Source: Oidiodendron maius Zn (taxonomy: Eukaryota > Ascomycota > Leotiomycetes > Myxotrichaceae). Taken from it: a stretch of DNA of 64,000 nt. The stretch spans positions 2,776,096 through 2,840,095 of the forward strand of contig KN832872.1 of the NCBI GenBank assembly GCA_000827325.1. Reading direction: 5' to 3'. Shown here one piece after another: positions 19,727 through 64,000 of the stretch. Each line of letters starts with the position of its first letter. Within the stretch, counting starts at the first letter, position 1. The position numbers and the translations under genes are program-made. The notes under the pieces were generated by a model that saw nothing but the letters and a program-made list of their open reading frames with translations, made no database searches and had not been told where the DNA came from.

Positions 19727-20302
19727 AGATTGTAGAGAATAGCGGGACGACGATATCGAGAGTAGAAATTGGGAAGCGACAAATTTGTAGGCGATGATGT
19801 AACGCTACAATGGTGGCCAGCTCAGAACTTTGATTCGGCCAGCACGCCAGAGCTTCAGCCGCTTGTATCCGCCTGCAATTGGAGCAGTAATCGAGAACAT
19901 GCAATCGGTGGGTCATCACCAGGCATTCCTTGCTGTGTTTCTACCACGGGCACGGTTCCCTCCACCCAGCCCTGTGTCAGTGACCGGCCCGGTGCAACAA
20001 AACAGACAAACCGAACACTGCCGGTGCGCATCACGCGAATATTCCATTAGTCAATGCGAAGAGCTAACCAACCCTAACCCGGCTGTCGACACGACGTGAA
20101 AGAAAGGGTTTAGCGATGTAACTGGGTGGTATCTCTAGGCATTCGAATCCTCGGTAGGCGTTGCTCAGTGCGGGTTCCGGCCCCTGACCGATCTCCCAGT
20201 CAGGCGTGCATTTCGAATTATCTCAGCGTGTCTCTGAGGGCTTCATTTCAGGGCAAATATCTCATCTACAGAGACTCACTGACAACAAGCTCCTCCATTT
20301 TC
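19727..20302. promoter_or_regulatory. Divergent promoter of GABA aminotransferase and bZIP regulator
   Basis: 576 bases separate the two start codons, which point away from each other, so control elements for both genes must lie here. No specific operator could be assigned by eye. Confidence 0.45.
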
Positions 20303-21986
20303 ATGATGTCAAACTCGTCTTCTCACACTGGCTCTTCATCTAACTCGGAACGGGATAAGAGGTAACTCGTGCATACCGCTTTTATTGGATGTCGCTGACT
20401 TCATTTTAAGAAGAACTCTTAATCGCTTGGCCCAAAGGGCCTTTCGCCGTAGGCAAGCTGAAACTTTGAGGGAACTGAAAACCCGTGCTGATGCCGGCCA
20501 AACATCCAATGGTGACGTGGTGGCAGCACTAAAGCAGGAAAACAGCCTCCTACGCAAGCAGCTCACAGAGACGCAGGGGCAGCTAGAACGGATTCAAGCT
20601 ACTTTACAGTTAATGACAGGATCCATTACCAAGGCTCTGGATAAGAGACAGGCGAGCATAACCAAGGATTACAGAGAGTCCCAGGAACTACATCCTGCCG
20701 AGGGGGTTGAGAGTAAGGGCAATGCAGGCATGACATATAAATTGAAAGACCTAACTGAGTTTGTGTAGCACCGTGTGCAACTAGCGTAATTCCAGGTGAT
20801 GACTGCCAGACTCTGCACGACAATACGACAAGTGAGTCTGTCGTTTTAAATAGCGCTCTTAATGCCCCGCTTTGTTGCTAATAATGGCCACAGCTCAGTT
20901 GTGTATTGGCCATTACACTCCGGGTACAGATGATTCTTCATCAGCATCGCTCTGCCAGCAAATACCGAACACATGGATGTTCCAATACCAAATGGGTCCC
21001 CAAGTTTATGACGATTGCCTTAGTGCAAATCGGCAGTCGAGTTCCGCCCTCGGACAAGACTGGGTAGATTCGAATTCCCCATTCTCAGACCATGTCAGAG
21101 TTCTCAAAGGCCTTCTGAAGAGCAAATTGAACCAGACGGCTCTCATGATGTCTCTCCCCCAATTGTGAGCCCTATCGCGACTTGCTAAACAAGTACTCGA
21201 GTTAACTGAAACCCTAGGCTTTACCAGCCTGTCTCAATGGTTTTGGCCATGTTTAATAGCATTACCCGTCCAGACGTCATGGCTTGGTATGTGCATACAC
21301 GGTTCTACCATATTATAGAACTTACAGCTTGGCAATTGTCTCCATCTCCCACAACATTCTCTAAGCTTCATGAGCGATACAGACAGACAGATATACAGAT
21401 GAAGTTTCATGATAGATACCCCTGTATTATTGATTGGATACCTTTTCCACCAATACGAGACCAACTGATACAACTACATACAGCAAACCCGCGCATCGAC
21501 CAGGTCTTCTGTGATGCAGTGAGCGCTTATGTCGTCGAGACCTTTCTATCAGACTTGATAATAGGCGGGCCTCCTGTAACTGCATATATCCGGGTCACAG
21601 ATCTAATCCAGGCCATGTCCTTATTTCCCGAGGTTGATGACCTAGGTCTTACAGCAACACTTCCGATTTTTGACGTGTCGACGATCTTTACGTCACCACA
21701 ACACGCTCTTTTAGTGTTTAAGCTCTTAAAGATGGACCGTGGGGTGTCGCAATATAAAATTGATCCCGCATTTTTCGGCAAATATCCCGAACTATATCAC
21801 CCTGGAATGGATGGTATGATAGCGAGTGGGATACCACTGAAACCAGACATTCAAACCACCCTTACATGCCCAAAACCCCTTGATAATTTGACGGTTGGGA
21901 CCTACCGTAGTTTTATCAACTTTTCTTTCGACGCGGCTGCTCAGATTATCAATAATAAAGAAATGTGTGGCGAGTTGGTCCTGTAA
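20303..21986 (+). CDS. bZIP transcription factor with C-terminal DUF3425 domain
   Basis: Five exons (20303-20361, 20411-20712, 20769-20831, 20894-21164, 21218-21986) give 487 residues. The basic region NRLAQRAFRRRQ matches the fungal bZIP consensus NxxAQxxFRxR. It is followed by heptads with Leu/Val/Ile (LRELKTR, VVAALKQENSLLRKQL, LERIQATLQLM). The C-terminal half (from WYVHTRFYHIIELTAWQLSPSP to FPPIRDQLI and a long helical tail) is the DUF3425 domain found behind many fungal bZIPs. The intron joins keep the frame throughout; intron 2 carries a CTAAC branch site. Lying between GABA-T and SSADH, it is a candidate local regulator of that pathway, which is an inference from position. Confidence 0.9.
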
Positions 21987-22280
21987 TGGTTCAGCTCTTG
22001 GACTTCTTGTCCTCAATAACTTTCACTTAGACTTGATATTGATAGAGAGAATTTCAGTTTTGACGAATGTGGGATACTGCCGCAAGGGAAGGCCGTTAAG
22101 CATTGTGTTAGATTTAAATGCAAGCTTGTAATCCCTGGAATAACATTCTCTATCCGCCAACGGTATAAGTGCTATTCTCAATGTAAATGACTGCTTGCAC
22201 GATTTTCATAACCTTTGGAGCCTTGTAATGTCCACAATTATTTTCAGGCCGGCTCCATCATCGAGCAGTTTTATACATAA
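21987..22280. other. Short convergent intergenic region
   Basis: Lies between the ends of the bZIP gene and SSADH. Nothing beyond 3' flanks was seen. Confidence 0.4.
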
Positions 22281-23948
22281 CTATGGTGTCGGTGCACCAT
22301 CAACTGTGAGAGTTCCCGTCTTCGCAATTAAATACTCTTCAATAGCTACTTCTTTGCCGGCCTCCTTGCCATAGCCAGAATCTTTAATACCGCCAAAGGG
22401 TGATTCGGCAGCTGAGGCATTTCCTAGACTGCGCGTTAGTACTAGTTATAGCAGACATGTTAGGGAAATAATGAGGCTTGCCTGTATTCATGCCAATCAT
22501 TCCAGCCTCGAGATTTTCCAGCAGTCTCCAGGTTCGGTTGACATCCTTCGTGAAAAAATATGAAGCCAGACCCATGGAAGTATCATTTGCCAACTTCACA
22601 GCCTCTTCCTCAGTGTCGAATTTGTACAAGGCCAACAAGGGGCCAAATATTTCCTCCTGAGCCGCCAGCATTGAGGGTGTCATATCTGAGATAATCGTCG
22701 GCTCAAAAAAGTAACCACTCAGGCTCTCAGGCTGCTTCCCGCCGCAGAGGATCTTGCCTCCTTTCTGGACGGCATCGGCGACAAAGCTTTGAAGCCTCTC
22801 AATGGCTCGATTGGTGGTGAGCGATCCCATAGTTGTGTTAGGATCTGTTCCATGTCCAACGCGGATTTTCTGTGTTGCCTCCAACAGCATTTGTATGAAC
22901 GTATTATATATGCCGCTTTGGATGTAAACGCGATTGGCGTGAGTGCATGCTTGACCAGCAGTTCGCCACTTTAGAATCATGAGTGCGGCGATGGCTTGCT
23001 CCAAGTCTCCATCGTCGAAGACAATGAATGGGCAATTGCCTCCTAGTTCCATGGTGACCTTTTTCAGGCCATAGCTGCAGTGATTTGCAATGATCTTGCC
23101 CACAGTCGTGCTACCAGTGAAAGTCACCTTGCGCACGAGTGGATGCTTGCAGAGTGTCTCACTGACCAATGGTGTGTTGGCATTATCGGTAGTAATAACG
23201 TTCAGGACACCTGGAGGTAGCCCTGCACGGAGAGCGAGGTCAGCTAAAGCCATTACACTCAGAGGTGTCTCAGGTGATGGTTTGACGATCATAGTGCATC
23301 CCGCCGCCAAAGCAGCGGCGACTTTACGAATGATCATGGCGACAGGAAAGTTCCATGGGACGAGCGCAACGCAAACACCGATAGGCTGCTTAATTACAAT
23401 TGTGCGGCGGTTGGAGATAGATGGTATGGCGACCGATCCACGAACTCGCTCAGCTTCGCCAGCAAACCACCATGCAAAGCCGAGTGCGTAATCGACCTCC
23501 CCTATCGCTTCTGTCATAGGCTTTCCGGTCTCGTAGACAACAATCTTAGCTATGTCCTCTCGAGCCTTAGTGATTAGATCGTGCCACCTGACGAGAATCT
23601 TAGCTCGCTCGCGCGGATTTACATAACGATAGTGTCCGAAAGCCGTCTGTGACGACTCGACAAATTTATCCACATCGGCCACCTCGTTTGTCGGACAAGA
23701 GGCAAAGATCTGTCTTGATCCGGGATCTATAATAATGATAAGCAACTTGATCCTTACTGTGGTATGTGATACAAGACTCACCCTCAACATCAAAACGCTT
23801 GCCGGATTGGGACTGAACCCATTCTCCTTGAAGCAGCGAAGCCTCATGGAGTAGGGATTGATCATGCAGCTGTAACTCAGTCAGCCAAAAACCGACAAAA
23901 GTTAGACAGGTCACAGGTAAGAACCTTTAATGGCTCGTACTGAGACAT
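22281..23948 (-). CDS. Succinate-semialdehyde dehydrogenase (aldehyde dehydrogenase family)
   Basis: Four exons from the ATG at 23948 give about 500 residues. It is NAD(P)-dependent and oxidises succinate semialdehyde to succinate, the last step of the GABA shunt. Family marks: LVPWNFPVAMIIRKVAAALAAGC, KPSPETPLS, FTGSTTVGK, catalytic Glu in VTMELGGNCPF, catalytic Cys in AGQACTHANRVY, EEIFGPLLALYKF, and the ending SPFGGIKDSGYGKEAGKE. Intron 3 (22481-22424) has a GC donor (CAG|GCAAGC). Splicing there gives NTGNASAAESPFGG, whereas reading through loses the conserved C-terminus. Intron 2 joins DVE to DPGSRQIF. A short first exon (MSQYEPLK) is set by a GTTCTT donor, a weaker site. It works with the GABA aminotransferase 2.6 kb away. 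Confidence 0.93.
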
Positions 23949-45785: not shown

Positions 45786-48700
45786 ATGAAGGTGGACGAT
45801 TTCGGGTTTCAAGGAGTGCAGCTCAAAGAAGATGGCAAGTCAGTGCTGGCAACCTCACCTAGGTATCGAGCATCATCAGAACACACCGTTAATACTGACG
45901 CTGTATCGAGTACTGTATATCAATTGTTGGTATTCTTTCGATTTTGGCCTACCAATCAACCAGCTAATGATTAGTGATGCCGATGATATATATTTCAAAG
46001 CCTGGCGGTCCGTGACAAATGATTGCAAATACAAACTGGAAAACGACCAGTTGTGTGAAGCGCTCAAAGTCACGTCTTCCATGGAATTCAAGGCTCAATT
46101 GGAACTGCTTTCGCATCAGCATAAAAATAAACTGCAGACTCAGGTTTTGTATATGCTCTATATGACAGTCCCACACTATGAAGAGTTTGCGGTCATGTTC
46201 GTCAAAATGATGAAGAGAGATATTGACATGTCGATGATGTGGGGCTTGCTCTATCTTGTGGTTAAGGTAGCTATGTTTCACTTATTAATCTACCGACTCG
46301 ATGAATATCTTTCTAAGAGAACCCAAAGTTGTCCATGGAATCGAGGGATTCTTTGGACCGAATCTTCCAACTATTAAAGGCAATCGGCAATAATCTAGAT
46401 TCTCTGAGCGAGTTCGGTCAGACCACGCCCCCGGAAAATTTAAAAGAAGACTCAGTCCTGGTGCATAACGAAATTATGGTGCTATGGCTAAATATTATAT
46501 TGCTCTTCCGTGCTAATCCTGGTGAGCCAAACCCTTCTTGCATGCTCTTTGAAATATACATTTTCCTCCCACCATACAAGAAATGCTAATAAGCTGCAGG
46601 TAAGATACCCGAAGAGGAATGGAAGCCGATACAAGAAAAACGCGATACCATTGTGAACGCGATCAAGGATGCCGTCGAGAAATGTTTAATATATGCTAAG
46701 ATAGACTTAACAAAGAAGCAGCAGAAGGATATGGAACTCCAGTTGCATTTTAAATCTACATCAATTAGTGATGAGTTACTATCACAAGATCCTACTAATC
46801 TATCCAACGGCATGTCCACATGCCACAAGCTCCCTGCTTCACGAAATTTAAACTTCTTCGGCAGGGAGACTGAAATGAAGGAAATTGAAATATTTCTCGG
46901 GATCAACGGAGAACCAGCTGCCACGGGGTTTCTATCAGTGGTTCTGCATGGTTTGGGAGGTATGGGCAAAACTCAAATTGCTCTCGAATTTGCCTACCGT
47001 AACGTAGACAAGTTTCCTGTCATCTTGTGGTTTAACGGCGAAACCGAGACCTCAATGCAGCTGAGCTTCAGCGCTGCGGCGGTTGACTGGCTATGTTTGC
47101 ATGATGCAGCGCTCAACAGTGATGTGGACAATCGATTTGCTCTATTGAAATGGCTTCAAGAAACGAGTAAGCTATGGAAGTGTATATGTGTTGAGAAATA
47201 CGGAGCTGATCGTATGATAACAGAAGTAAACTGGTTACTAATATACGACAATGTAGAAGACAGCAGGATACTCAACGAGTACTTGCCAATTTCACCAAAG
47301 AAGGGTTCAGTAATCATTACCTCTCGGAAGCGTAGTTTTAACTGGAATCGAGGTGCCATCGAAATCGTCGAGTTTGCCGCATTCACGGGGCTAGATTTCA
47401 TCACCCATCTCCTCAAGAACCGCCCACTAAGTGATAAGGACCGAGAAGCAGCCATAGAACTCTCAGGCAAACTATATGGTCATCCCCTAGCCATTAATCA
47501 GATGGTGGCGCTTATGGATAGCAAAATGTGGTCGTTTTCTAAGTTCTTACGTAAATACGAGACCAGACGCCCAAGTTTGTTAAAAGAAGCCAAAAAGGAA
47601 TGGTCTCATGGTGGATATGAACTTCTTCTTGGAAGTCTCTTCTCAATGTCATTTGGCGCTTTGAGTCCCACTTCACGTCATATGCTTGGTATACTGTCGC
47701 TGATTTCGCCGGACATTATTACACAAGATATTTTCAAGCTAGATGAAAGCCTCAAGGTACCTGAAACACTCAGTTATTGTCAAGATGAAGACGAGTGAGC
47801 TGCATACTCTTCTGTGTAAATGCTACACATAATAATAACTCTCTCAGGATTGAATCTATAATAAAGGACCTGGTTGAACTCTCCTTGATCAAGTGTGATC
47901 CAGATAACGACAATTTAAACATCCACCGTCTAGTGCAAGATGAGTTCAACTTCCAACTCAGTGATTCAGACCGAGAAAGTGTTTTCAACTCGGCCGCACT
48001 GTTGCTATATGAAGCTTTCCCAAAACAGGTCAATGGCGAAAGGTTTGAGGATCGCCTGCCGATCTGCGGTAAATACATTCAGCATGTTTACTGCTTGATA
48101 GGTAATTTGAATGCTGCTTTGAATGCAGATAAGCAATTAAAGCGACCACCGAGTATTACTCCTTGCGCTGAATACGTACGGCTTATGACAAATGCCGCGT
48201 GGTACTGTGCTGAGCGACAAGATCACTTCAAGCTTGAATCTGTCTTGGAAAATGCTTTCCAAGCCATAAATATTAATGGGATGAAGGATATAGACCCATT
48301 GCCATGGGCCCATCTTTGTAACTCCGCTGGCCGCTTGTGGGGTCAACGAGGCCACTTTGAAAGAGGCGAACGCAATTTCCTTGCATGCCTCGAAATTCGC
48401 AAAGAGATATTTGGAAGAGGAGACGAGAATATCGCAGGTCTTTTAAGTAACCTAGGTAACATAAACCTATCTATGGCAAGATACGATACAGCGTTAGATT
48501 ATCAAAGGCAAGCGCTGGATTGGGGAGTTGTCAATGGTCGCAACGAACTATCGCCTAGAGCGCAGGCAATCATCATGATAAACACAGCACGAGTATTGAC
48601 GGATCTGGGACACACGGAGGAGGCTCGGAATATGTTTAGGATGAGCGATGAGATAACTTCTAATAAACAATCGTCCCTGTAAGTCGGAGCCTCAAAGATA

Positions 48701-49555: not shown

Positions 49556-51680
49556 TCATCCGAGGTACGAGTTAGGCACGTAGAGCGGCATGGAGTCCTC
49601 CCATATAGTGTCCGTAAGCAGCTTCTTGTCAGAGCCATCGTAATTCATGACCATGATCTGTCCATACGGCTGGAATGTATTGTCATACAGGTGGCTCTCG
49701 TCCTTGAAGCCATACATTCCTGTATTCCACATAATACGGCCGTCATGGGTCCATACGGCACTGATTGTGTCTGTTAGCATGTGACTCTTGTCTAGCAGGG
49801 GCAACAAAATGAAATTAAATGACGCACTGGGCATCGTTAGCCAGGCTATCCGTGAGGCGGGTAAGCCCGGTGCCATCGGGATTGATAGTGAAGATGTCGA
49901 AGCGGTCCTCGTACCAGCGGCTACCGTAGGACACGGTCCAATTACTATTTCGCGTAAAGACGATGCGCTCACCATCGGGAGACCAGCCAGGTGTGTTGTC
50001 CCAGCCGTCTGTGAGGACAGTAGTCAACCCGCTTGTGAAGTTGAGGACATGTAGGCCCAGCGGGGCACCTGTGTCATAGCTCCAGACGCGGTAGACAATG
50101 GCGGTACCGTCGGGTGACCAGGATGGTAAGCCCGCGTTGTTCAAACCGTCAGTTAGGTTCATGTGGAGGGTGCCGTTGGCGTAGGTCCTATAGATGACTG
50201 CCGGGGCCTCGACCCGCGTAGTAAACCATGCCCCGAACCCAACGACAAGCTCGGTCCCATCGGGGTTCCACGATGGCTGAAAGGCACCAGCCTGGCCCTC
50301 CTCAAGCCACAGGACCTCAGTTGCGTTACTGGTCGAGTAGATGTCATACGAGTCAAGGGCATCGACCAAGTCGGTATACAGAGGCGACGAAGTGACAAGA
50401 GAGCCGTTGGCTGCGCCCAACACTTTCTGCGTTGAGGCCAAGCGGTTCGTCACGTTGTTAATCACGGGGAACACATCCATGTAACGATAGTCCCAGTCAG
50501 GGTCGTAGCTAAAGAGTTCTGTCTCACCTGGGAGCTGATCCCAGTTGGCGATCTCGTACACGACCTTGGAGCCGTCGGGTGACCAGGAGGGACTGCGCAG
50601 GTTTGTGAGATTGAAGGCAGCGAGTGCTGTATCTGCGGCTGTGTAGTTAATGCCCTCGACGGGGATGGCCCCTTTGAGGACGTAGCCAATGTTACTGCTG
50701 TTGCCAATATAGTGCGGGCTGACCTTGAGGTAGTTGCCCGATGTGTGGGCCACAATGTCTGTGCCTGTTGCGATATCGACGCTGTAGATCTGCGACGTCA
50801 CGGCAGCTTGCTCAGGGCCAACTCCGTGTGCAAAGTATGTGTTCTCGGTCGTTATATTGCTGTAAATGAGGCGCTGGCCGTCGGATGACCACTGCGGTGA
50901 GCCCAGTGAGTAGCCGCTCTGCTTTATGATGAGGCGGAAGTCGGACCCATCTGGACGGATGATGTAGATCCCCAGGCTCTGTGTATGTTCCCAGCCCACA
51001 CCATCACTATGGCCCGTCCAGTCTGTGTTCCGGTCAGAGCTGAAGGCAATCCACGCGCCGTCGGGGGACCACGCGGGACGAAAATGGCCTGACGGCCAGA
51101 TGTCGCTAGGGCGTGTCAGAGCCGTATCGGTGAGATTCCGGGTCTGGCCTGTTTCCAGATCCATGAGCCAGATATTGGCCGTGTAGTTGCCGCGAGTCGA
51201 CATGTAGGCTAGTATGGTCCCGTCCGGTGACAGCGCCCCGGTATCCTCGACGTAGTCCGTCTGCACAATCGCCTGGACTCGCGAGCCGTCGGTCTTGACG
51301 CGATAGAGGTCGGACTGGCCAAAGGCGCGACGCTCGCTGGTGAAGATGATCCAATCGCCGTCGGTCGACCACGACGCATGGTAGTCGAAGGCGTGGGTTT
51401 GGTTTCCCATCAGGGCCAATGCATTGCTCCCATCAGCGTTGGCGATGTAAAGCTGGGACCCTGAAGGGGCAATGCGGTTCACTAGCAACTAGAATCAGTC
51501 AATGTACTGCGGAGAGAGATTTTATACGGATCTCCTACTGTACATGATGCCCTTCTTTCCCTCGATGGTACGGGCGACGGTCGAGTCCCGCTGCGCCCCG
51601 CGCTTGACATTGGCATAGGGGCAGTTTGCTGTGGCCAGACCAGCCACCAAGGCGACGATCAGAGCGTCGAAGAAATGCAT
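49556..51680 (-). CDS. Secreted PD40/TolB-like beta-propeller protein, candidate polysaccharide lyase
   Basis: Three exons (51680-51539, 51481-49828, 49760-49556) give 666 residues. The N-terminus MHFFDALIVALVAGLATANC is a signal peptide, and there are many N-x-S/T sites, so the protein is secreted and glycosylated. The body is built of PD40/WD40-like blades with repeating SPDG-type turns (WSTDGDWIIFTSER, LSPDGTILAYMSTRG, WSPDGAWIAFSSDR, WSPDGSKVVYE, WNPDGTELVVGFG, WSPDGERIVFTR), about seven or more. Intron 1 uses the acceptor GCTAG|TG, giving IMYMNRIAPSG. TolB-like propellers have diverse roles. Oligouronide lyases of PL22 and, as I recall, rhamnosyl-glucuronate lyases of PL27 also have propeller folds. 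Given GH105 and GH115 neighbours, a lyase role is a hypothesis, not a reading of active-site residues. Coding G+C is higher than in flanking genes. Confidence 0.8.
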
Positions 51681-52153
51681 GTCCGCAGCAGTTCTTTGGG
51701 GAGGAGGGCCCAAGGCCGCAATGCGAGGATGGCCTAGGTACCATTATATATTTTTGCTCCAAGTGTCTACGTAAGTGCTGCGTCGTAATGTAGCTAGGAA
51801 TATATATTAGATAGATGATGATAGGACCACAGAACCACTCAAAAATGACCGGCTTTTCTAGCGAACTGCCGATCCCGCAGCTTTGGAGCCCGATCGGTGG
51901 CTAAGACCGAAGCTATTTGTACAATACAAGCAAAATTATAGCATGGGTTATCTACTATATCCTACTATATCCTACTGCTGTAAATATAGGGTTAACAGAA
52001 ATATTTCTATTATTTATATATCTGAGCCATTCTTCCTACGATAACTATGTGTATAGTGGACATTTTAACAATTAGCTTAAAAGACCTTTAGTATTCCACT
52101 GTAAGTCGCAGTCAACTCAAGTGTGCCTTTATAATGAGATCTATCTCTTCTCT
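51681..52153. promoter_or_regulatory. Promoter region of the beta-propeller gene
   Basis: Non-coding and AT-rich on the side of the GH38 gene. It includes a short direct repeat (CTACTATATC twice near 51953-51975). The upstream activating elements of the propeller gene are expected here. Confidence 0.4.
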
Positions 52154-55100
52154 CTAGGCTAGAACAAGCCGGTATGTGCACACTTGGAAGGGACCCAAAT
52201 CCACTTCAAACTTGCCGTCATTGAAAAGAACTTCATCTCCATCATCTTCGAGAAGGTTAGTCTTGAAAACCTTGCTGACCGGCCAAGTCGTCTCGATGCT
52301 ACCTCTCCCTCGTCCTCCTAGGGCATCATACACGCGGATAATAACACTCCTGCCCTGTCTCTTCCGCAGGTCACTCACACTCACATCCTCATCGTCCTCG
52401 GCGCGCTTGACAGTATCAAGGACCAGGTTGTCGTCGCCCTTTAGGACAATAGGTGGTTTAGCCAGACACGACCCCTTAGATGCAGTCATTAGCTTGAGTG
52501 GGCTGTTGAAGTTGAAAGCAGCCCGAACAGTCTGGACACCTAATCCACCTTGGTGCGGCATGATGGCCCAGCGAATGCTATGGCGTCCCATGTCCGCCGT
52601 GTCGTCTGGTGCTTTGGGCGAGCGGAGCAGGGACAACCGCATCACATCTCCGACCGTGGAGAAGCCGTACTTGCTGTCGTTAAGAATGGAGACGCCGTAT
52701 TTGTACTCAGAAAGGTCCGCAAATTTATGACAGCAGACCTCGAATTTGGCCATATCCCATCTGAAAGGTTGTCAGCAGCCATCTTTAGGGCCAGGGGGAG
52801 TGAGAATTGCTTACGACGTATTGTAATGAGTTGGTCTCTTTATGATACCGAATTGGGTTTCATAAGATGCCTCGGTATTCTGCACGTTGACGGGGAATTC
52901 TACTTTGAGGAACTTCATGGTCTCATGCCAGTCGACCTCAGCCGTGCACTCGACGTAGGACTGCTGGCCATGTTCATCAAAGGCGGCCGACAGCGCAATA
53001 GTTGTACGGATGGAGCTCACGTCGCTTATCTTGGTCTCAGTAACCACACTAACACGGTGTAAATTGTCTTCTAGAATAGAGGTGGTTGATGCGCTTAACT
53101 CCTGGCGCGTTTCGAGGTGATATACCTCGACATCCCAGGCCTGCCAGTAGATAGGCTTATCGTCGAAGATGACGAAGTTGTTGGCCTTACCGGAGAGAAC
53201 CTCCCTCTCCGTCAATCGGTCATATAGAGAGGTGATACAGCCATTTTCGACTGTCGCTGAGAGCTGGCTATTCTGTAACCAGAAGACGCCGGGGGACATC
53301 TCCCGAATGGTCACTGGCTTCTCCTTCTGTGATGTGCTGCTGATCTTTTCAACAGAAAGCAGGCTACTGTTGCCATAAGCCATAACAGCTTCGTTATTGG
53401 ATATCTGGATGATTTCCTGCCGGGGCCATGGTAGAGTATTTAGAGCCACAACATCTTGGCGGTTACTAACTGAATCGGCTTCAATATCATTAATACGGAG
53501 GACCGCGTAGATTTGCTGTAGAAGGTTGTATCCGGTTTTGTAGACTTTGGCATATATCTGTTTAGGCAATTAGTCCTATTTGGTGTCCCATCATGGACAA
53601 GGACACATACTTTATCCGAGTCGTCGTAACACATCTTGATCGCGCTTCCCGGAAGGCAGTCATGAAATTGACACAACAGCACGCCCTCCCACATCTCGTC
53701 AATTGCTGCCTTGGGGTAATGATATGTGCTATCCTCTATCGAAGCAATCGTTGCGAGGAGTTCAATGTCCTTTAGCAGGAACTCTGACTTACGATTATTT
53801 ATCTTAGTGTTAGCTTGGGTGGTATATACGCCCCGGTGCAGCTCGAAGTAGAGCTCGCCGTACCATGTAACAAGCGAGCTGGCTTTCTTCTCCAAGTTGT
53901 CAAAGAAATCGTCTACAGTGCCTCCAGAATGAACACGTGGAATCCGTCCAACTGTATCCGACATGCCTCGAAGTCGTCGAAGCCTCTCCAAGTGCTGCCA
54001 AGTTGGTCCGCCTCCACCGTCGCCTTTTCCGAACTATTCAAATATTAAAATCAGTAAAATTCGGGCACTATATACTGAAGATTAATAGGAGGCCTTTGGC
54101 TATTGAGTGCGTACCACAAGGAGAGAGGAATTGTCTTGGTCAAGGGACCTATGATTTGACACGCTTCGTTCGATATCGCCGAAGCTAGCTTCCGCGCAAT
54201 ACGTCTTTGCCGGGGGCATATGGCATATCACTTGACTTCCGTCAAGCGCCACCCTATTTTATTTACAATTAGCAACAGCACTAAAGTGTAGTTAAGAAGT
54301 TAACTGGAGTGTTAGGCTGAGAATATGCGAATATATTTCTGATGATCCAGCCGAGGCTGTCCAGGTACAGTACAAGGACTGAGAAGCAATTCTGAGTTGA
54401 AAATTACATACCAGTTGAACGTCGTATGTGGGAAGTCATTGACACTGTTAAAACAAGGCTTTTGGGTGAGGAAACGGTTCATCCCGGCCTGCCTACAGAG
54501 CTGTGGAATCTGACTTGAGAACCCGAATGTGTCGGGAAGCCAGCATGTCGTAGAGCGGGTTCCGAAGTTGCTTTCGAAGAACCGTTGGCCGTACAGAAAC
54601 TGTCGAACCAGGGACTCGCCACTTGGGAGATTGGTGTCATGCTCGATCCAGCAACCTCCGATTGGATGGAACTGTCCTGCCTTGACTTTTGACTTTACTC
54701 GCTCCCAAGCCCAAGGATAATCTTCCTTTAGCCATTTGAACTATCGAATAATATCAGCGTCTATTCTGCGCCCTTTAGCGGGCCATGTAATTGGATACAA
54801 AGTTGGCCGTTCCAAAACACGATGTGAGTCACGAACCTGCTGAGCCTGTGAACATGCAAAATTGAGCTCCGGGTACCGGTCCATCAGATCGCACTGGTTG
54901 GACCACGATCGGACGACTTTCCGCCTTGTCTCCGCCCAGGGCCACAGCCAGCAAGTGTCAATGTGACAGTGACCGATTGCAAAGACAGTCGGCTTCTTGT
55001 CATTGAAGCTCTTGTGAACCTTCTCTGAGTTAATATCCGCACCGAGGTATTCCTCTGCAATCTTTCGGCATCGCAAGATGGAGCTCTTGTCTGCAGCATT

Positions 55101-55931
55101 GAACGTGTCGATTATTCTGGAGGCTATATTTAGCGCCTCATGCTGCTCCCAGGAATCCTCCGGAAGCTCCATGGCTGCATCGTGTATGATCTGAAAATCC
55201 AACTGAAGCATCCTGGCTTGCATATTAGGGGCAACAAGCTCGGCCTTTGAAAGCGCGAAGTGCTTGTTCGGGTCAGGAGGTTGGATAGAGTCGCCTCCTG
55301 CGTTGTTCTTGAATATGGGCCGGCCTGGGCCATTCCCGAACATACCATTGCATGCCATTTCGAGATACAGGAGGTGACTCTTTCCATCCTTGAAAGAACG
55401 TGGCAAAATCCACTCGATACGCTCTCCCCTCCCAGTCAAACCCTGAAGGGGCATACCATCCTCGGTCCAGACTGTTGCTTCATTGCTACAGTCCCAGTGC
55501 AACTCAACGTGCGTATCATTTTGGCACAGCTCTTCGGGCACCGTGAGATGGGCTTTGAACCAATGGGTCGTCCAAGAAGGCCCAAAGGACTGCTCAGTAT
55601 GAGCCTCCACATAGGTGTTTGACTTGTCTGTGGCCTCTTCGAAAGTCGGCCGGGTCATGTCAGGAGCATGCCAAACAGATAACTTGATGTTTTCAGGGCC
55701 AGGGTATACGCCATCATGCAGTGCGCTGTCAAGACTGGTCAGCAGGCTTTGCTGCGTTACATCATTTGATAGCGGGCTTTCTCACGCAAGAAGGTTGACC
55801 TTCTCCCATTGTCCTTCAGAAAAGAAGTTCGTCATGCGTTTCTTGTAAAGGCTAGTGATACGCTTGCCTACAGGTCCCAAGGCCCGCAAGGGATATCCGG
55901 TCCTTCGAGTTGGACCTTCCTCACCACTCAT
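52154..55931 (-). CDS. Alpha-mannosidase, GH38 (Ams1 type)
   Basis: About seven exons give roughly 1,080 residues. The start MSGEEGPTRR (55931) leads into KRITSLYKKRMTNFFSEGQW, as in vacuolar/cytosolic Ams1-type enzymes. The catalytic domain shows GHCHIDTCWLWPWAETRRK (near 54960; His and Asp bind the catalytic zinc) and CWLPDTFGFSSQIPQL (near 54530; Asp is the nucleophile). ELYFELHRGVYTTQ and LLCQFHDCLPGSAI are further family marks. The C-terminal beta domains run to 52154. The first intron (GTGAGA...GACCAG) joins NLLA to LDSALHDGVYPGPENIKLS. There is no signal peptide, so it is intracellular. It removes terminal alpha-mannose. Ams1 normally trims free N-glycan oligomannose; here the neighbouring GH115/GH105 genes suggest a polymer-derived substrate as an alternative. 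Confidence 0.93.
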
Positions 55932-56840
55932 GGCGACACCTTCATGAGAGCACATTGAGAAAAGTCTTATGGGGTGCAATGAACTTAATTCGCACCTATT
56001 CCTCTTCACTTTTGTAGAGTTTCGCTCCAACTTTACGGCGAGCTCGCCAGCTAGGCTGATCACTGGACCAAAGCTAGCGCCGATTTAGATGGCCTACGGA
56101 GGATGGGGTGCGAAGTGTTGCTTTCGGAATACCCCGATCCTTCAAAGCCCGACCCTAAAAGCCGCTATTTTAACTGTGATGTGGGCCAATATGGTGCGGA
56201 ATAGATTCGGCCAAAATCGCCTGCGGGACATTCTACTGGAACACCCCTGAGCCCGGTGCGGCGCCAACGTAGCGGTGACCCAGACTTTAACCTATCGGAG
56301 CAAGATGTTCCCTACCTCACGTGGTACTGTCAACCAGGGGAGCTTTACGAGGTAGTGGTCATCATGGCCATCGCTGCTTGCAGATGCGATGAGACGATGT
56401 GGGGCAGGTATTAGATGCAGACATTCACCTCCCCATGCGAATCCAGCCAGAGATAATTGCATTCGAACGGCACTAAAATTCCGCAGAGGACTGTTCAACC
56501 CATACAAATAATGAAATAGCCCTCAACTCCCTACAAGATAGCTATAATGGCGAGGTGGTTAGCATCAATCAGCTCCATGGACTTTTCTTCCATTTCAAAC
56601 GCCGAGGTTTGTAGATTCAAGCAATCGCAACAAGTAGTCATGGGCAAAGCACTATAGAGTTCGAGACAAGAAAAGTACATGTCACAGACAACAATGATAG
56701 ATAGTGGATGGCATTAAATACATAATGTCATGATAGTGATGTATAGGCCATAGCTCGTCACCTTAAAACACACCAGTCACGACTAAAAACTGAAGGCATC
56801 ACCCCGTTGTATGCAATCATTTGAAGCAGAAAATCAAGTT
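55932..56840. other. Upstream region of GH38 and 3' flank of the carrier gene
   Basis: Non-coding. A CGG-N6-CCG pair lies at 56125-56136, a possible zinc-cluster regulator site. No gene was seen. Confidence 0.4.
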
Positions 56841-58605
56841 TTAATATATGTATCTGAAATTCACATTTGCCTATTTCATATTAGATCAATTCTCTGCACA
56901 GTATCATAGTAAAGGGAACTCACTCTGTCAGTCACATCCTCAAAGGAGTGGGTAAACAACACATCCGCAAGCACCTCGCCACGGGCAACCTTGTCATCTC
57001 GTCTCTTGTTCTGCCAGACATAGTAGGTCCGCATCGCGAATAGCGTTACCTCCAGCAACGCGAAACAGCCCAGAATGATGGCCAATGCAAGAAAGTAGCG
57101 CGGGGCATCCTTGGATCGGAATACTTGAGGTCCTATGGCGTTGCCTGTTGCCCAGAACACGAAGTTGGTTGCGATTACGACGCTCTTCTTCGTTTGGCCA
57201 GCTACATTCCGAGTGACAAGTGACAACGCAAGACCAGAACAAGCCCAGAAGGAAATCATGATGTAGTAAGCAAACAGCAAGCCTACACGCTTGTGCACCT
57301 CGAATGGAACGGTAAGCAGCACAACGGTACCTGCGATGGTAGGCAGCACAGCTGCCATCATAGCCAAGATGGTCTGATGAAAGCGTTTATCCACCCAGAC
57401 AGCAGACAGCATACTGATGATCTGGATAGCGCCAGACACCATTTGTAAAAGCTGAGTCTGCCAGGTTGTGAAACCAAAGGACTTGATGATGATGTTGGCA
57501 TATGCGCCAAGTCCACCTGACGGGAGAGTCGTGAAGAGTTGGATGAGGGCGAAGCCGTAGACTATGGAGAATGTTAACAGGGAACACAATTACGGAGGGA
57601 TACGGTGCTACTTGCCCTGCGGATCACATATGGCGTCCCATACCTGCTCCTTGCGAAACCTGCGGTTCTGGAGTCCGGTACGGTTCTGGCGCACGCGCTC
57701 GACCATAAGCTTCTTGTCTTCCTCGCTGAAGCAGTGTGCTTTCATAGGGGAGTCAGGCATCCACCATATGACGAAGGCACCCCAGAAGACGGTGATGATG
57801 CCGTATGTCATGAAAAGTGCCTGCCACGATACGATAGGACCAGTCGCGGGTACGAATGAGAACCCAAATGCTAGAAGACTGCCGATCATCTGTTGAAAGC
57901 CGTTCATCATGTACCTGATATCTCATGAATATGATTCCCAACACTTTTTGGGGAGGTGCCTGTAACATTGAACATACCAGAAGATTACGGTGCCTGCTTG
58001 CTCTTCGCGCTTGTACCATATGCTGGAGAGGAGGACGAAGGAGGGCTGAGAGGTGGCTTCAAAGGCACCGAGCAATGCCCGAAGCGTGACCAAGCCCGTG
58101 AAGTTTTTCATTGCGGCGTGAAGAGAGAGCACGATGCCCCACAGGATGATATTTAAGCCGAGCCACTTAGCGATGGGGACCCTCTGGATGATGTAGTTTT
58201 CCGGATACTCGACAACCAGGATAACGATGTAGATAATAGTGGTCAGCCATGAGTACTGTTACATGCTTAGCACTCTGCACATCTCGCCCGCATTTCGTAT
58301 CACGGCCTTACCTGGTTACCAGTTAGATGGGTATCATTTATGATTCCCATGATGGAGGCAAAGGACATCGTTCCCTTGTCCAGCGTCTGGATGAAGTAGG
58401 TGAAGACCATGACGGCGAGGACGCGCTTGTCGATAAGCCGTTTCAGGCGCTTGTCGGTCTCTTCATCGATTTCGACGATGGTCTCGCTCGCATACTGGGC
58501 GACCTCCTTGTCAACAAGGTCGTAGTTCATGTGCGCATTCTTGAGTCCCTCATCCTCGACAATTTCGGGGGCATCAGTTATCTCGATCCTCTTATCGTTC
58601 GCCAT
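56841..58605 (-). CDS. Dal5-type anion:cation symporter (MFS, ACS family)
   Basis: Five exons give about 510 residues and 12 membrane helices. The start MANDKRIEITD precedes a ~65-residue cytosolic segment and then KRLIDKRVLAVMVFTYFIQTLDKGTMSFASIMGI, the ACS-family first helix. Helix 4 region ALLGAFEATSQPSF and WWMPDSPMKAHCFSEEDKK are also typical. The last intron (56923-56871, GTGAGT donor, AATAG acceptor) is inferred because it replaces an atypical tail with DRANVNFRYIY, the FRYxY ending common in this family. Members import allantoate, vitamins, organic acids and, in some fungi, L-rhamnose. Divergent start with GH115 suggests uptake of a sugar, uronide or oligouronide. Confidence 0.9.
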
Positions 58606-59071
58606 CGCTCTAGCTGGACGGTGATGATAGTATTGCACACTTGGGATGTCGAGGCTGGGTTTAACGAACAAGCTCGAAGATCCCTTCCCCAGCCTTTAAG
58701 TAATTTCTCTTTCCCCCGGCTTTTACCCATGTGACAAGAACACGCCAGCCCCCGCGTTACTCCGCAAAGTTTTGACGGGGATAACCCTTTCCGGTTCAAT
58801 GCTTAGCATCCCACATGCTAAGACAGCCTGGCTGCAAGTTCAAGTTAAAATCGGCGAAACTCCGGGATTGGGACAAGCTAAAATGCAGCATGGTTAAAAA
58901 ACCGGAAAACTCCACCGGCGGTCTGGTGGCAACGGGGTTCACAGCTAGAGTCCAGGCACAGTAATTAGAAGTAATTACTCACCCATGTAAGCCTCATCCT
59001 TTGTGAACTTAGTCAGTCTGTGTACCTGAACTGTGAATACAGAGGAGACCTGACTGGGACAGCGTTCGAAG
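58606..59071. promoter_or_regulatory. Shared divergent promoter: Dal5-type carrier and GH115
   Basis: 466 bases between outward-facing starts. A CGG-N9-CCG inverted pair at 58903-58917 is followed directly by GCGG, a layout zinc-cluster (Zn2Cys6) activators can bind. The function of this site is inferred only. Confidence 0.45.
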
Positions 59072-62000
59072 ATGTTCGAGGACCAGTTTGTCTGTTTTTC
59101 CAAGTCGCCGGGACGGCTCGATCTGGTTGGTGCGGCAATCGTGGTGGAGCAAGCCGACTTCGCCGGTGTTCACATTGCTGTTCGCAACCTAGCAGAAGAT
59201 TTCGCCCGAGTCACGAGCAAGTCCCCGAGCCCGGTGCAGATATTGACAGCTGAGCATGACGGCCTCGCCAATGAGGCTGGCACCGCTATCATTGTGGGCA
59301 GTATTGAGGCAAGTCCAATACTCCAGCGTCTCGAGAAGGATGGGAAACTTGACTTCAGCAAGATTCGAGGCAAATGGGAGTCGTATACTACATCCGTGGT
59401 TGACAACCCTTTCAACTGCTGTCGTAAGGCACTCGTTATAGCCGGCAGTGACAAGAGAGGTGCTATATTTGGGGTGTACTCGCTATCAGAGCAGCTCGGT
59501 GTCTCACCGTATGGTGGACTCTCATCTAATACCTCCTTCATCGATCACTAACCTCCAGGCAGATGGTACTGGTGGGCTGATGTCCCTCCGAAGTCACACA
59601 CAGAGATCTATGCGCTCCCTATAGTCACGACGCAGGGCGAGCCCAGCATCCGATTTCGCGGCATCTTCATTAATGACGAGGCGCCGGCGCTCACAGGCTG
59701 GGTGCGAGAGAAATTTGGAAAGTATGGTGTTGAGTTCTACACGAAGGTGTTCGAGTTATTGTTACGGTTAAAGGTAAACATAAGATGAATGAGCATTATT
59801 CTGCTCGGAGTCGGGAAATACTGACGACAGGACAGGCCAACTTTCTGTGGCCAGCCATGTGGCCTGGATATCCTAACCCTGGTGCGTCGTTCTTCGTCGA
59901 TGACCCGGAGAATCAAAAGACCGCCGAAGAGTATGGTATCTGCGTTTCCACATCTCATCACGAGCCAATGCAACGTCTATCTAACGAGTGGTTTGCCGAC
60001 AATCCGGATGGAAGCTGGAACTGGCTCACAAATAAACAGAAAATCACGGAGTTCTTTGATGAGGGTGTCCGTCGAGCGAGGGGGTGCGAGTCGTACTTCA
60101 CGCTGGGAATGCGTGGGGAATACGATCGGAAAATGGCTACTGATGACCCGGCCGCCGTTGTCCGAGACGTGATCCAAACTCAGCGGGCAATTATTAAGGA
60201 TGTTCATGGTAGCGAGGATGCAGTGCCCCGTATGCATTACGGCCATTATCATCTTGCTTCGGGAGTAACTAACTAATTCTTAGAACTTCTGGCTCTGTAC
60301 AAAGAAGTACAGGAACAGTACGAAAGCGGTCGACTAGATGTTCCGAAGGATGTCACACTTCTCTTTGCAGATGACAACTTTAGCACAATCCGACGCCTTC
60401 CATATGGTAAGGAAACTGAGAGGAAAGGTGGAGCAGGTGTCAGTGCAGGCCCGATCTTGCATGTTTATGCATGCCGACTGATAGCGCGTTAGATCTACTA
60501 CCACTTCGAGTATGTCGGAGATCCTCGGAGTTATAAATGGACCAACAGTAACTCACTAGTAAATCTTCCAACCTACCATCATTGACACCACTAAGTAAGG
60601 AAACAGGGCAAGACATGGCATCAGCTTCAAGAAGCCCACCGACGTGGCGCAAGACAGATTTGGATATTCAACGTCGGTGATATCAAACCTCTAGAGATCC
60701 CATTGACATTTGCCATGGCACTCGCTTGGAATATCAATTCCATCAAAGCGGATCAATTTGTACAGTTCTTCAGCACTTTGGCGGAACGAGAGTTTGGCCA
60801 AGAGTTTAGCCAAGAGATCGGTGCGGTATGGCACGAGTACGATCGCCTTGTCTCTCTGCGTCGACACGAGCACATTGAACCTCAAACCTTCTCCCTTCTG
60901 CACTATAATGAAGCAGAGACCATTCTAGGCCGGTGGAAGGCTCTCCTGGCTGACGCAGAAGCGATATATACGTCCGTCTCAGAAAATCAGCGCCCCAGCG
61001 CTTTTGAGCTCGTGGTGCATCCCATCAAGGCATCGTATATATTTGTGGCCTTACAGATCACCCTTGGACGTAATCAGCTATATGCTCGCCAACGTCGTAA
61101 CTCTGCCAATTCTCTGGCACAGCAGGTCCTCAATCTCTTTGACTCTGATTTTAGTCTTTCTGAGGAATTCCACGAGCTGCTTAACCGGAAATGGATCCAT
61201 ATAATGCGACAGCCTCATTACGGCTTCGGGGACACATGGCACGCACCGTCGCGAGATATGATCAGTGGTCTTTGCTATGTCCAGCGTCGGCAGAATTCCA
61301 ACCCTATTGTGGGGCAGATGGGCATCGCGGTCGAGGGCCACGAGGGTGTGCGGCCAGGACGATGTAACGAAGAGTCAGACAGAACACACCCAAGTAGACG
61401 AGACTTGATACCAGGCGTGACACTTGGAGCCATGACACGCTACGGGCCTAAGAGCCGGTGGTTCGATATTTTTACCCGTGGGGCCCCAGCAATACACTGG
61501 ACGGCTAACGTACCTTATGGTTGGATCAAACTTTCTGCTTCTGCGGGTGAGCTGGTCCCAGGGGAGGATGACGCTCGCATTGAAATTACTATTGACTGGG
61601 GCCAAGTACCCCCGAGCTTCAACCAAAAAGTTCTGGTAGATGTTCGCTCCACCGATGGCGACTTTGAGCAGATTCACCTCCCAATAATTGGTCGGCAGGT
61701 CCCAGAGACATTTAAATATGGATTCGTTGAAGGTGATGGGTTCATCTCCATGCCGGCGACATCTTGTGTCATTAAATCTCCATACCGGGTTCTTCCAGAT
61801 ATGGGGAGATCATTAGCTGGCTCCGTCACCATTGACCCGACTTCAGACAAAGCCTTGCCCTATCTTACCTTCGATATTTATGTCTTTACAGAAGCCCCCA
61901 CAGCAACTTTGCTGCTTTACTTTAGCATGACTCTGGACCTCGACCCGACTGATCCTATGAACTATGGTATACTAGTGGATGGAGACCTGGTGCAGACACA

Positions 62001-62244
62001 CCGGCTTGTACCGGAGGCGACGAAGGCCGGCGAACTTCCTGATGGCTGGATCTCAGCTGTGCAGGAGTGCGTATGGGTTAGAAAACATGTGGTCACAGGG
62101 AGCTCTTTCAAACCCGGGAAGCACAGCATACAGCTTCAGCTGAGACACACGAACATGATATTGGAGAAGTTGGTTGTGGATCTCGGTGGCACCAAGGAAA
62201 GTTACCTGGGCCCGCCGCCGAGCATATGTATACAAAACATGTAG
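59072..62244 (+). CDS. GH115 alpha-glucuronidase
   Basis: Six exons give about 965 residues. Joins verified by frame: SP|WYWWADVPP, RLK|ANFLWPAMW, P|QLLALYKE, GAG|IYYHFEYVGDP and NSL|GKTWHQL. GH115 marks: YSLSEQLGVSPWYWWADVP, FRGIFINDEAP, LWPAMWPGYPNPGASFFVDD, TSHHEPMQR, TLLFADDNFSTIRRLP, WIFNVGDIKPLEIPL, and a C-terminal GH115 beta domain. The family removes glucuronic or 4-O-methylglucuronic acid side chains from glucuronoxylan and related polymers, also from internal positions. No signal peptide is visible at the chosen start, unlike many fungal GH115 proteins, so intracellular action on imported oligosaccharides is suggested; an upstream secretory exon cannot be ruled out. Confidence 0.93.
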
Positions 62245-62925
62245 CACATGCGTTAAATACAAAAGTTGCATCCGTGTACAATTTATTGCTGCTTAGCTAT
62301 CTCTTCCACTCCCATCATCACTGCATAACGCCGCGTAGATCGATGCTTGAACGATAGTTCGGCCACTGGATGACCTTCCTGGTGGCGATTTACATCTTTA
62401 GGCCACCCGCATTACGATCACTGAATTCCACCACTGGTGCTTCGTAAGCGCTGACTTTCCAACACTAAAACCCCTGCTATCCCAGTTTAGAAAACACTGC
62501 TAAAATGCAACTAGCGAGAAGATGGGAAAGCGTCGGTCTTCTCTTGGCCGAAGGCTTGGGGTGTGTTCCGGTAAGGCGGAGGGGAATCCGGAGAAGTATC
62601 AAATAGTACTCGCCTACAGGTTGAAATTTGAAGCCTTTCTGGGAGCCTTATTTAGTCTCTCCTTTGGTGGCAAAATAGGGTAATTAATTCCGAGTCTTGT
62701 TGAGCCGAGGCAAAAGATCGTTTCGACCTTCAGAAAAATCGGGTGGAGACTTTAAGGCTGGCTCGCTTACACCGGCCGCCATTAAAGAATTTCGAAGGCA
62801 GATTAAAATGCAGAAAGGAAGGGAAGTAGCAAAGAACTTCTCATTCTCCTCAGCCAGCTACATCGAAACCTCTTTCTACCGTTCAACTTACAGTCGTGAG
62901 CAGCCGTTATACGAGTGCCATCAAT
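62245..62925. promoter_or_regulatory. Intergenic between GH115 and GH105, promoter of GH105
   Basis: Non-coding. A CGG-N8-CCG pair lies at 62577-62590, with another CCGGTAAGGCGG just before it. No other gene was seen; the short frame at 62697-62942 overlaps the GH105 start and is not supported. Confidence 0.4.
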
Positions 62926-64000
62926 ATGCCTACGACCGTTGAGGGTATCGAGTCCTCTGAAATTCATAAGTCTGTCAAGCTGCTCATCAATAACCTCGTC
63001 AACATCACCGACACGACTGGGGAGTTCCTTCTCACCCTCCCGGATGGACGGGTAATTGACACCAAAGGGTGGAATGACTGGGAATGGACACACGGCATCG
63101 GTCTTTATGGCCTGTATAGATATCACGTGTTAACGAACGATGCATCTACACTACAGATTATCGAGGATTGGTTCAGGGACCGCTTTGCGGCAGGAGGCAC
63201 AACCAAGAATATCAACACAATGGCAGCTTTTTTAACCCTAGCGTATCTCTACGAGAAATCTGGAAACCAGACATACCTCCCATGGCTAGATTCCTGGGCC
63301 GAGTGGGTGATGTATGATCTTCCGCGCACAGAATACGGTGGCATGCAGCACATCACCTATAATACCGAGAATAAACAGCAACTGTGGGACGATACACTTA
63401 TGATGACTGTTTTACCACTCGCCAAGATCGGGAAGGTGTTGAATAGGCCGCACTACGTGGAAGAGGCTAAGCGGCAATTTCTGCTACATACAAAGTACTT
63501 GTTTGATACCCAGACAGGCCTGTTCTTCCATGGATGGTCGTTCGATGGAAATCACAATTTTGCAAGGGCGAGGTGGGCGAGGGGCAATTCCTGGCTTACA
63601 ATCGCGATCCCGGAATTCATTGACCTACTTGATTTGGATGAGCGGGACCCAATCAGGATACACTTAATAGATACACTAGAGGCACAATGTCGTGCCCTTA
63701 AAACCCTTCAGGATGCTTCTGGTCTGTGGCGAACATTGCTGGATCATGACGATGAGGGATCGTACGTGGAATCATCAGCAACTGCAGGGTTTGCATACGG
63801 GGTTCTACTGGCGCGGAGGAAGCGCTATATCGGCCCAGAATATGATGATATGGCCATCAAGGCTGTAAAAGCGGTCATAGGCCAAATCGATGAGAAGGGC
63901 GAGCTGCAAAACACAAGTTTTGGTACCGCCATGGGAGACTCCTTACAGTTCTACAAAGATATCGCGAGAACGAGTATGCCGTATGGGCAGGCAATGGCGA
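62926..64000 (+). CDS. GH105 unsaturated uronyl hydrolase, 3' end cut by window edge
   Basis: An uninterrupted frame from the ATG at 62926 (MPTTVEGIESS...) runs past the edge; 358 residues are visible. Family marks of GH88/GH105: KGWNDWEWTHGIGLYGLYRYH, INTMAAFLTLAYLYEKSG, QQLWDDTLMMTVLPLAKIG (the Asp pair is in the catalytic region), FFHGWSFDGNHNFARARWARGNSWL, and QDASGLWRTLLD with ESSATAGFAYG. The enzyme hydrates and releases the 4,5-unsaturated uronic acid that polysaccharide lyases leave at non-reducing ends of pectin-, gum- or glucuronan-type oligomers. No signal peptide is visible, so it is probably cytosolic. It implies that a lyase acts upstream in the same pathway. Confidence 0.93.
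   Translation, partial: MPTTVEGIESSEIHKSVKLLINNLVNITDTTGEFLLTLPDGRVIDTKGWNDWEWTHGIGLYGLYRYHVLTNDASTLQIIEDWFRDRFAAGGTTKNINTMAAFLTLAYLYEKSGNQTYLPWLDSWAEWVMYDLPRTEYGGMQHITYNTENKQQLWDDTLMMTVLPLAKIGKVLNRPHYVEEAKRQFLLHTKYLFDTQTGLFFHGWSFDGNHNFARARWARGNSWLTIAIPEFIDLLDLDERDPIRIHLIDTLEAQCRALKTLQDASGLWRTLLDHDDEGSYVESSATAGFAYGVLLARRKRYIGPEYDDMAIKAVKAVIGQIDEKGELQNTSFGTAMGDSLQFYKDIARTSMPYGQAMA

Follow-up and report, generated by a model that had tools for sequence, protein, structure and literature searches.

How a fungus could cut an acidic heteropolysaccharide outside the cell and finish the fragments inside it is the question raised by a block of genes at the right-hand end of a 64,000-nucleotide stretch of the Oidiodendron maius Zn genome (hereafter, the window; contig KN832872.1, positions 2,776,096 to 2,840,095), which belongs to contig C3 (assembly size, 45.9 Mb). 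An earlier note had proposed that five consecutive genes of the window, coding for a beta-propeller, an alpha-mannosidase of glycoside hydrolase family 38 (GH38), a major facilitator superfamily (MFS) carrier, an alpha-glucuronidase (GH115) and an unsaturated-uronyl hydrolase (GH105), serve one task, with cleavage outside, import and trimming inside. The outline of that proposal stands, but it had no enzyme to produce unsaturated uronates, since the window stops short of the likely gene: 942 bp downstream of the GH105 gene and co-oriented with it, outside the window, lies a sixth gene whose product is a good candidate for this extracellular enzyme. The family of this protein, to which we give the name UNK, is the new point of our analysis. 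We consider it fairly probable that these six genes together serve the breakdown of an acidic heteropolysaccharide as one fungal catabolic cluster, with UNK as a secreted lyase, followed by import and intracellular trimming.

The cluster comprises the following features (gene models predicted from DNA alone, with introns set manually according to splice sites, reading frame and similarity to known families; numbering past 64000 continues that of the window):

49556-51680, minus strand: PROP, a secreted TolB/PD40-type beta-propeller of 666 amino acids, three exons (51539-51680, 49828-51481, 49556-49760), Pfam PD40 2.4e-35

52154-55955, minus strand: GH38 alpha-mannosidase of the Ams1 type, 1102 amino acids, seven exons, without a leader, Pfam GH38N 6.7e-93

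56841-58605, minus strand: MFS transporter of the Dal5 or anion:cation symporter type, 512 amino acids, five exons, Pfam MFS_1 3.6e-29

58606-59071, no strand: divergent promoter of 466 bp common to the MFS and GH115 genes, from the gene models

59072-62244, plus strand: GH115 alpha-glucuronidase, 966 amino acids, six exons, read as leaderless, Pfam 4.9e-138

62926-64038, plus strand: GH105 unsaturated-uronyl hydrolase family protein, 370 amino acids, one exon, without a leader, PF07470 1.7e-96

64981-66728 in continued numbering (contig C3 2841076-2842823), plus strand: UNK, the sixth gene, coding for a secreted protein of 545 amino acids, exons 64981-65361, 65417-66588 and 66644-66728

The spliced frames of all five families in the window are intact and their Pfam scores are far over the cut-offs, which bears out the families and positions given in the earlier note; the final 38 nt of the GH105 gene fall past the window end. 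The six genes are divergent or co-oriented, with intergenic gaps of 466-942 bp, and the flanking genes are unrelated to them. Leaders were called by sequence inspection and a crude hydropathy scan, by which UNK and the propeller (N-terminus MHFFDALIVALVAGLATA) have a clear hydrophobic start and the GH38 and GH105 proteins start without strong hydrophobicity.

The function that we propose for UNK comes from its relatives. The protein matches no Pfam or NCBIfam model and has no firm match in the PDB; distant relatives are found in Streptomyces, Bacteroidota, Alphaproteobacteria and haloarchaea. Pattern scans of prokaryote and viral contigs for close relatives found none, and a tblastn search of plasmids with UNK led to a Streptomyces protein (E 1e-19, 23% identity). 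A profile made from three UNK sequences matched in four of 395 Bacteroidota genomes and a profile of six sequences in 12 of the 395, several of these matches being weak and three of the genomes holding profile members themselves; a Bacteroidota member used as query on plasmids returned 13 records, six of which were fetched. The member from genome G151 gave no tblastn match on plasmids, the Streptomyces member matched only itself there, and the genome of stretch L049 (see below) holds no match to the Streptomyces member. Oidiodendron maius itself has two UNK paralogs, an intact one on contig C24 (34% identity) and a decayed one on contig C37. The intact paralog (C24 88963-95701; L035, L036) has a LacZ-type GH2 gene and a gene for a sugar carrier as neighbours; the decayed copy (C37, about 110900-112150; L037, L038) has in-frame stops and lies near frames that by eye are hexokinase-like and glucosamine-phosphate-deaminase-like.

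UNK relatives are recurrently linked to GH105 and GH38. On plasmids of four Alphaproteobacteria (Thioclava, Allorhizobium, Pararhizobium and Ciceribacter), which account for four of the six fetched loci, a GH105 frame starts at most 20 nt from the end of the UNK frame; the annotated UNK and GH105 genes of Thioclava abut, with 0 nt between them, and in the other three loci the distance is that between open frames. The Thioclava and Pararhizobium clusters also hold an ABC sugar carrier, LacI, KduI and KduD; KduI and KduD act on what an unsaturated uronyl hydrolase releases. The annotation of the Thioclava stretch includes no lyase, which would leave the UNK relative as the natural candidate for the enzyme making the GH105 substrate. 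About 10 kb further on, Thioclava carries a second GH105, 61% identical to that of the window, together with rhamnose genes. In the searched records with a PF07470 match, GH105 lies within 10 kb of an UNK relative in two of nine (2.5 and 9.1 kb; P 0.01 under uniform placement).

For GH38, seven of the 13 UNK-bearing records searched carry a gene of the family, four of them at a distance of no more than about 8 kb from the UNK relative (match to match, about 8 kb in Streptomyces and about 2 kb in G005, G015 and G201), which agrees with an alpha-mannose-containing acidic glycan; the chance of four in seven falling within 10 kb under uniform placement is 4e-5, a figure that overstates the case, such genes clustering anyway. 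In the Streptomyces neighbourhood there is a GH38 gene whose product is 35% identical to that of the window, together with a gene of the acetyl xylan esterase family and, by eye, an ABC sugar carrier. Among Bacteroidota we read seven stretches from six of the 12 genomes. The UNK gene of G151 is surrounded by GH105, GH43, GH95 and Melibiase_2 genes, and that of G183 has SusC/SusD-like proteins (by eye) and large secreted proteins around it. In G201 and G005 a Pfam-confirmed GH38 lies about 2 kb from UNK, with a PfkB-type kinase gene between them (from Pfam in G201, by eye in G005); the G201 locus also has a DeoC-type aldolase and that of G005 a heparinase II/III domain protein. G015 carries three UNK copies on one contig, with GH38 at 1.9 kb from one of them. 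Of the loci examined, that of the window alone combines GH105 with GH38 within 10 kb of UNK, and this joint presence would favour a glycan with uronic acid and alpha-mannose, such as glucuronomannans or xanthan side chains.

A residue pattern points the same way as the gene context. Asn192, Glu236, Tyr242 and Arg295 are invariant in all 19 aligned UNK members, the residue that follows the invariant Asn is His in 14 of the 19, and the distance from Asn to Tyr is 49-61 in 13 members. This spacing resembles that in most of the alpha/alpha-toroid uronate lyases of polysaccharide lyase (PL) families PL8, PL12, PL15, PL17, PL21, PL23, PL35, PL38 and PL39; computed from Table 4 of PMC12088678, it is 53-57 in PL12, PL17, PL35 and PL39, 59 in the PL8 AC lyase and 63 in PL23. 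We also count the frequent GH105 neighbour as a likeness to these lyases, from which UNK differs in giving no significant sequence match, in its unsupported third His and in its extra invariant Glu and Arg. UNK may therefore be called a putative lyase on the grounds of gene context and residue pattern, not of homology or fold. Our most far-reaching proposal, which is tentative and which we would put a little short of even, is that UNK founds a new toroid-type polysaccharide lyase family, present in fungi, Bacteroidota, Actinomycetota, Alphaproteobacteria and haloarchaea, that cuts uronic-acid glycans, some of them containing alpha-mannose (e.g., glucuronomannans), and operates as a conserved unit together with GH105 and GH38; the O. 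maius locus would then be the first fungal utilisation cluster of the glucuronomannan type.

A number of observations weigh against a secreted UNK lyase as the head of one pathway. In some toroid lyases other residues stand in place of the Asn, namely Arg in the PL15 alginate lyase and Glu in PL21 (PMC12088678). A column that might have held a third catalytic His is His in nine of the 13 members of our first alignment and Gln in the O. maius protein; its conservation was lost on realignment and we make no claim for it. A PL35-like hit in a PDB profile search with six sequences (E 0.12) was below threshold and disappeared with 13 sequences, when only a ribosomal protein was found (E 0.37), and none of the 13 members matched a Pfam lyase model. 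The Thioclava relative has no obvious leader, so its site of action may differ. GH105 is absent within 10 kb of UNK in C24, L050, L060 and L078-L081 and was not found in L085 and L086, the haloarchaeal and second Streptomyces stretches being without it; GH38 is absent within 10 kb in C24, L060-L062 and L080 and was not found in L082-L087, blastp with the window GH38 giving no match in the six plasmid stretches. GH115 was not found beside the bacterial UNK genes examined. The suggestion in the earlier note to extend the sequence to the right of position 64000, for further carbohydrate-active enzymes or a regulator, yielded UNK, a candidate extracellular enzyme, but no regulator gene is seen within the six-gene cluster. 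Lastly, NCBIfam (NF051900) labels the GH105 group of the window ‘beta-galactosidase BglB’. The same label falls, above cut-off, on six of seven further GH105 proteins, three of which come from two KduI loci, and it may be too wide; the GH105 proteins of L051, L053, L054, L082 and L084 bear it, yet stand in KduI, rhamnose or rhamnogalacturonan loci.

The GH105 protein of the window covers positions 2-351 of the 352 of PF07470, and its nearest relative in the PDB is 4xuv, a GH105 protein (E 1.4e-173). That it would act on unsaturated uronyl ends is suggested by context, its relatives standing beside KduI/KduD, rhamnose or rhamnogalacturonan genes. tblastn with the window protein matched 293 plasmid records, and five of these regions were read, a sixth having come with L082. 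For these bacterial relatives, of 63-64% identity, three of the five regions are rhamnose or rhamnogalacturonan loci: those of Sphingobium and Sphingomonas are rhamnogalacturonan loci with an adjoining MFS gene, and that of Paracoccus is a rhamnose locus with a TRAP carrier. In Pseudoalteromonas the gene lies beside an oligogalacturonate lyase and MFS pieces; in Salmonella it has no carbohydrate context. Within the O. maius genome, a GH105 paralog on contig C16 is 88% identical over 371 amino acids (77% at the DNA level) and adjoins the nearest paralog of the MFS gene, the two being transcribed divergently, as are the MFS and GH115 genes in the window. The MFS protein matches TIGR00893 at 6.6e-57, below the cut-off of that model; an intron of its gene (57562-57615) has a GC-AG boundary, with a GCAAGT donor. 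The C16 paralog is the nearest by summed score among 104 exon-level matches, for 97 of 161 candidates scored.

On C16 (494697-503278; L039, L040), the MFS and GH105 pair lies between two PL4 genes; of the four open frames of these genes, two score above cut-off for PL4 domains, one matches a rhamnogalacturonan lyase below cut-off and one has no match. The whole is an apparent rhamnogalacturonan-I cluster. The pairing of the nearest MFS and GH105 paralogs supports a carrier/GH105 unit, which is present twice in the genome with different neighbours. The lineage of the GH105 protein speaks for a pectic origin of the unit and favours a pectic glycan. With its paralogs placed between PL4 genes, a substrate of the pectic kind is no less plausible than glucuronomannan, and the statement in the earlier note that the implied sugars do not match pectin is not supported, in view also of the rhamnose and rhamnogalacturonan loci of the bacterial relatives.

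The same note had held that the sugars do not match plain xylan either. Residues R309, D313, D184, Y406 and W632 of the window protein align with R299, D303, D177, Y408 and W633 of wtsAgu115A (whose chain and published numberings were inferred to differ by a constant 2), and the metal-linked D407 of wtsAgu115A is Glu405 in the window protein. SdeAgu115A (PDB 4zmh) aligns with 633 bits over residues 21-960, the C-terminal domains included; the window protein differs from it in seeming to have no leader. Trp633 of wtsAgu115A is reported as conserved in xylan-specific GH115 enzymes of known structure (PMC9063842). The window GH115 keeps the catalytic and xylan-contact residues of xylan-type enzymes, and these residues favour a glucuronoxylan branch. 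On plasmids, 29 records match GH115.

The earlier note had also held that the hydrolases lack leaders and that the propeller has one. This is so for the propeller, GH38 and GH105; for GH115 the hydropathy scan was not decisive, a stretch near residues 18-25 peaking at 3.0, a value equal to that of real leaders. We still read GH115 as leaderless and probably intracellular, because its first residues align with mature solved enzymes (residue 4 with residue 32 of 4c90 and residue 21 with residue 23 of 4zmh), a stop codon in frame precedes the start by about 20 nt, and the promoter shared with the MFS gene holds no ATG peptide with a leader-like look. The second GH115 of the genome, on contig C12, starts with the leader-like MKLLIFSGLITFLPDVLA. 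GH38 has all the GH38 domains and the Ams1 N-terminal jelly roll (PF01074, PF09261, PF07748, PF17677 and PF22907), and Ams1 structures are its best relatives in the PDB; three GH38 genes were found in the genome, the window copy being 53-70% identical in segments to that on C4 and 44% to that on C14. Enzymes of the Ams1 type are usually without a leader, so the missing leader of the window GH38 is no special evidence for trimming inside the cell.

Could the propeller, and not UNK, be the lyase? On this account it would be an enzyme like those of PL42, PL24/25 or PL22, and UNK would be something else. The Fusarium oxysporum enzyme FoRham1 (PL42), whose structure was reportedly published in 2021, is like the window protein a fungal, secreted beta-propeller, and its product would feed a GH105. 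Uronate lyases are known among the seven-bladed propellers, FoRham1 being an example (PMC8377490), and the O. maius propeller carries a leader. Against this, a PDB sequence search at E <= 0.001 returned, besides 12 TolB chains, a single uncharacterised protein, and no match to FoRham1 (whether the searched set includes FoRham1 is unchecked), so that the propeller was not assigned to PL42 and lends no support to the arabinogalactan caps that the earlier note had listed among its substrates. Nor was it assigned to PL22: its Pfam matches at E <= 0.01 are PD40, DPPIV_N and DUF5050 only, with none to the Pfam oligogalacturonate lyase family of PL22. A single-sequence AlphaFold model of its long frame was unusable (pLDDT 38). 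We regard a propeller lyase as very improbable. A pattern scan for close prokaryotic relatives of the propeller found one amidohydrolase with PD40-like repeats (L049). The UNK relatives of G201, G005, G244 and G015 (L078, L079, L080 and L081) adjoin secreted BNR/sortilin-type propellers, often in tandem (by Pfam for two of G201, from their sequences for the others), a suggestive parallel to the fungal gene; blastp of the fungal propeller against the open reading frames of the Bacteroidota UNK stretches gave nothing at 1e-3.

Two other accounts of the six genes were weighed. If the cluster were a second rhamnogalacturonan-I module, GH105 and MFS genes copied out of pectin metabolism would deal with unsaturated galacturonyl-rhamnose from a pectin that UNK or the propeller also attacks; GH115 and GH38 would then be either incidental or directed at attached side chains. 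The close C16 paralogs between their two PL4 genes, the loci of the bacterial GH105 relatives (three of five, with a fourth beside an oligogalacturonate lyase) and the rhamnose genes beside the Thioclava UNK-GH105 pair are all as this account would have it, and the rhamnogalacturonan-I loci of Sphingobium, Sphingomonas and C16 have, like the window, the same GH105 subgroup beside an MFS carrier. Those loci, however, carry acetylesterase genes, GH28-like or beta-helix genes and PL4 or other rhamnogalacturonan lyases, and that of Sphingobium also rhamnose catabolism, all of which the window lacks; by Pfam, neither a known pectin lyase nor a rhamnosidase is present in the cluster, four other records have UNK relatives near GH38, and we know of no place for GH38 or GH115 in rhamnogalacturonan-I. 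Such a module seems fairly unlikely to us. The genes may instead form a loose neighbourhood in which each enzyme serves its own polymer, as the xylan-type residues of GH115, the pectic look of GH105, an Ams1-like GH38 that could be a housekeeping copy and the lack of a shared promoter motif beyond chance would allow. Six adjacent genes set between unrelated ones, divergent or co-oriented with gaps of 466-942 bp, are not what such a neighbourhood predicts, nor is the recurrence of UNK near GH105 and GH38 elsewhere, nor a GH115 that seems to be without the leader carried by the other genomic copy; we consider this account improbable.

In the six-gene pathway that we prefer, secreted UNK would cleave the chain by beta-elimination beside a uronic acid, leaving 4,5-unsaturated uronyl ends, and the secreted propeller may help outside. 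The Dal5-type MFS protein would import the oligosaccharides, from which cytosolic GH105 would remove the unsaturated uronate, cytosolic GH115 alpha-1,2-linked (methyl)glucuronate and cytosolic GH38 alpha-mannose; the direction of flow and the co-regulation of the six genes are inferred. As the substrate, a pectic glycan linked to rhamnogalacturonan or xylan is as plausible as a glycan of the glucuronomannan kind, whose breakdown would use GH105 and GH38. The cluster may be called a fungal polysaccharide utilisation locus in a loose sense, in that a secreted protein, a carrier and intracellular glycosidase families are present and the secreted protein presumably acts as an enzyme. The scheme recalls the bacterial use of xanthan, in which an extracellular lyase is followed by an intracellular unsaturated glucuronyl hydrolase and alpha-mannosidase (PMC10881899). 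In the systems of Bacillus GL1, Microbacterium XT11 and Ruminococcaceae R.UCG13 described there, a lyase precedes an alpha-mannosidase, of GH38 in several; Bacillus GL1 and R.UCG13 have an unsaturated glucuronyl hydrolase, and trimming is intracellular in Bacillus GL1. These systems use a PL8 xanthan lyase, GH88 and backbone glucanases, with ABC carriers in Microbacterium and R.UCG13, whereas the O. maius locus has UNK, GH105, GH115 and an MFS carrier and no glucanase.

The promoters of the cluster share no convincing common motif, k-mers being near chance. Three matches were near chance by a rough count and were not used: one of 13 bases between the upstream regions of GH105 and of a C16 PL4 gene, one of 12 bases with the C16 MFS/GH105 promoter and one of 11 bases between two promoters of the window. 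To the right of UNK lies a ferric reductase gene (by Pfam), then an NLR-like gene about 6 kb from UNK, and NLR-like genes occur on both flanks, at 46593-48682 of the window on the left (NB-ARC by Pfam) and at 72668-76809 (continued numbering) on the right, where a nucleotide-binding (NB) region and TPR-like repeats were recognised by eye in open frames. Elsewhere in the window, 18835-23880 holds a piece of a class III aminotransferase and an aldehyde dehydrogenase (by Pfam), perhaps a degradation pair of the gamma-aminobutyrate (GABA) type, and a Fungal_trans match at 832-1830 falls below cut-off.

Going by literature titles, we are aware of no fungal locus described as combining these genes; to our knowledge, import and internal finishing of unsaturated uronyl oligosaccharides are little described in fungi, while the bacterial pathways are well known. 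The carrier/GH105 unit, found with different extracellular genes in one genome, makes module swapping open to test. Should UNK prove to be a lyase, it would represent an enzyme family missed by Pfam and NCBIfam, with ready bacterial partners, and would hint at the class of substrate served by ‘hypothetical protein’ genes that stand beside GH105 and GH38.

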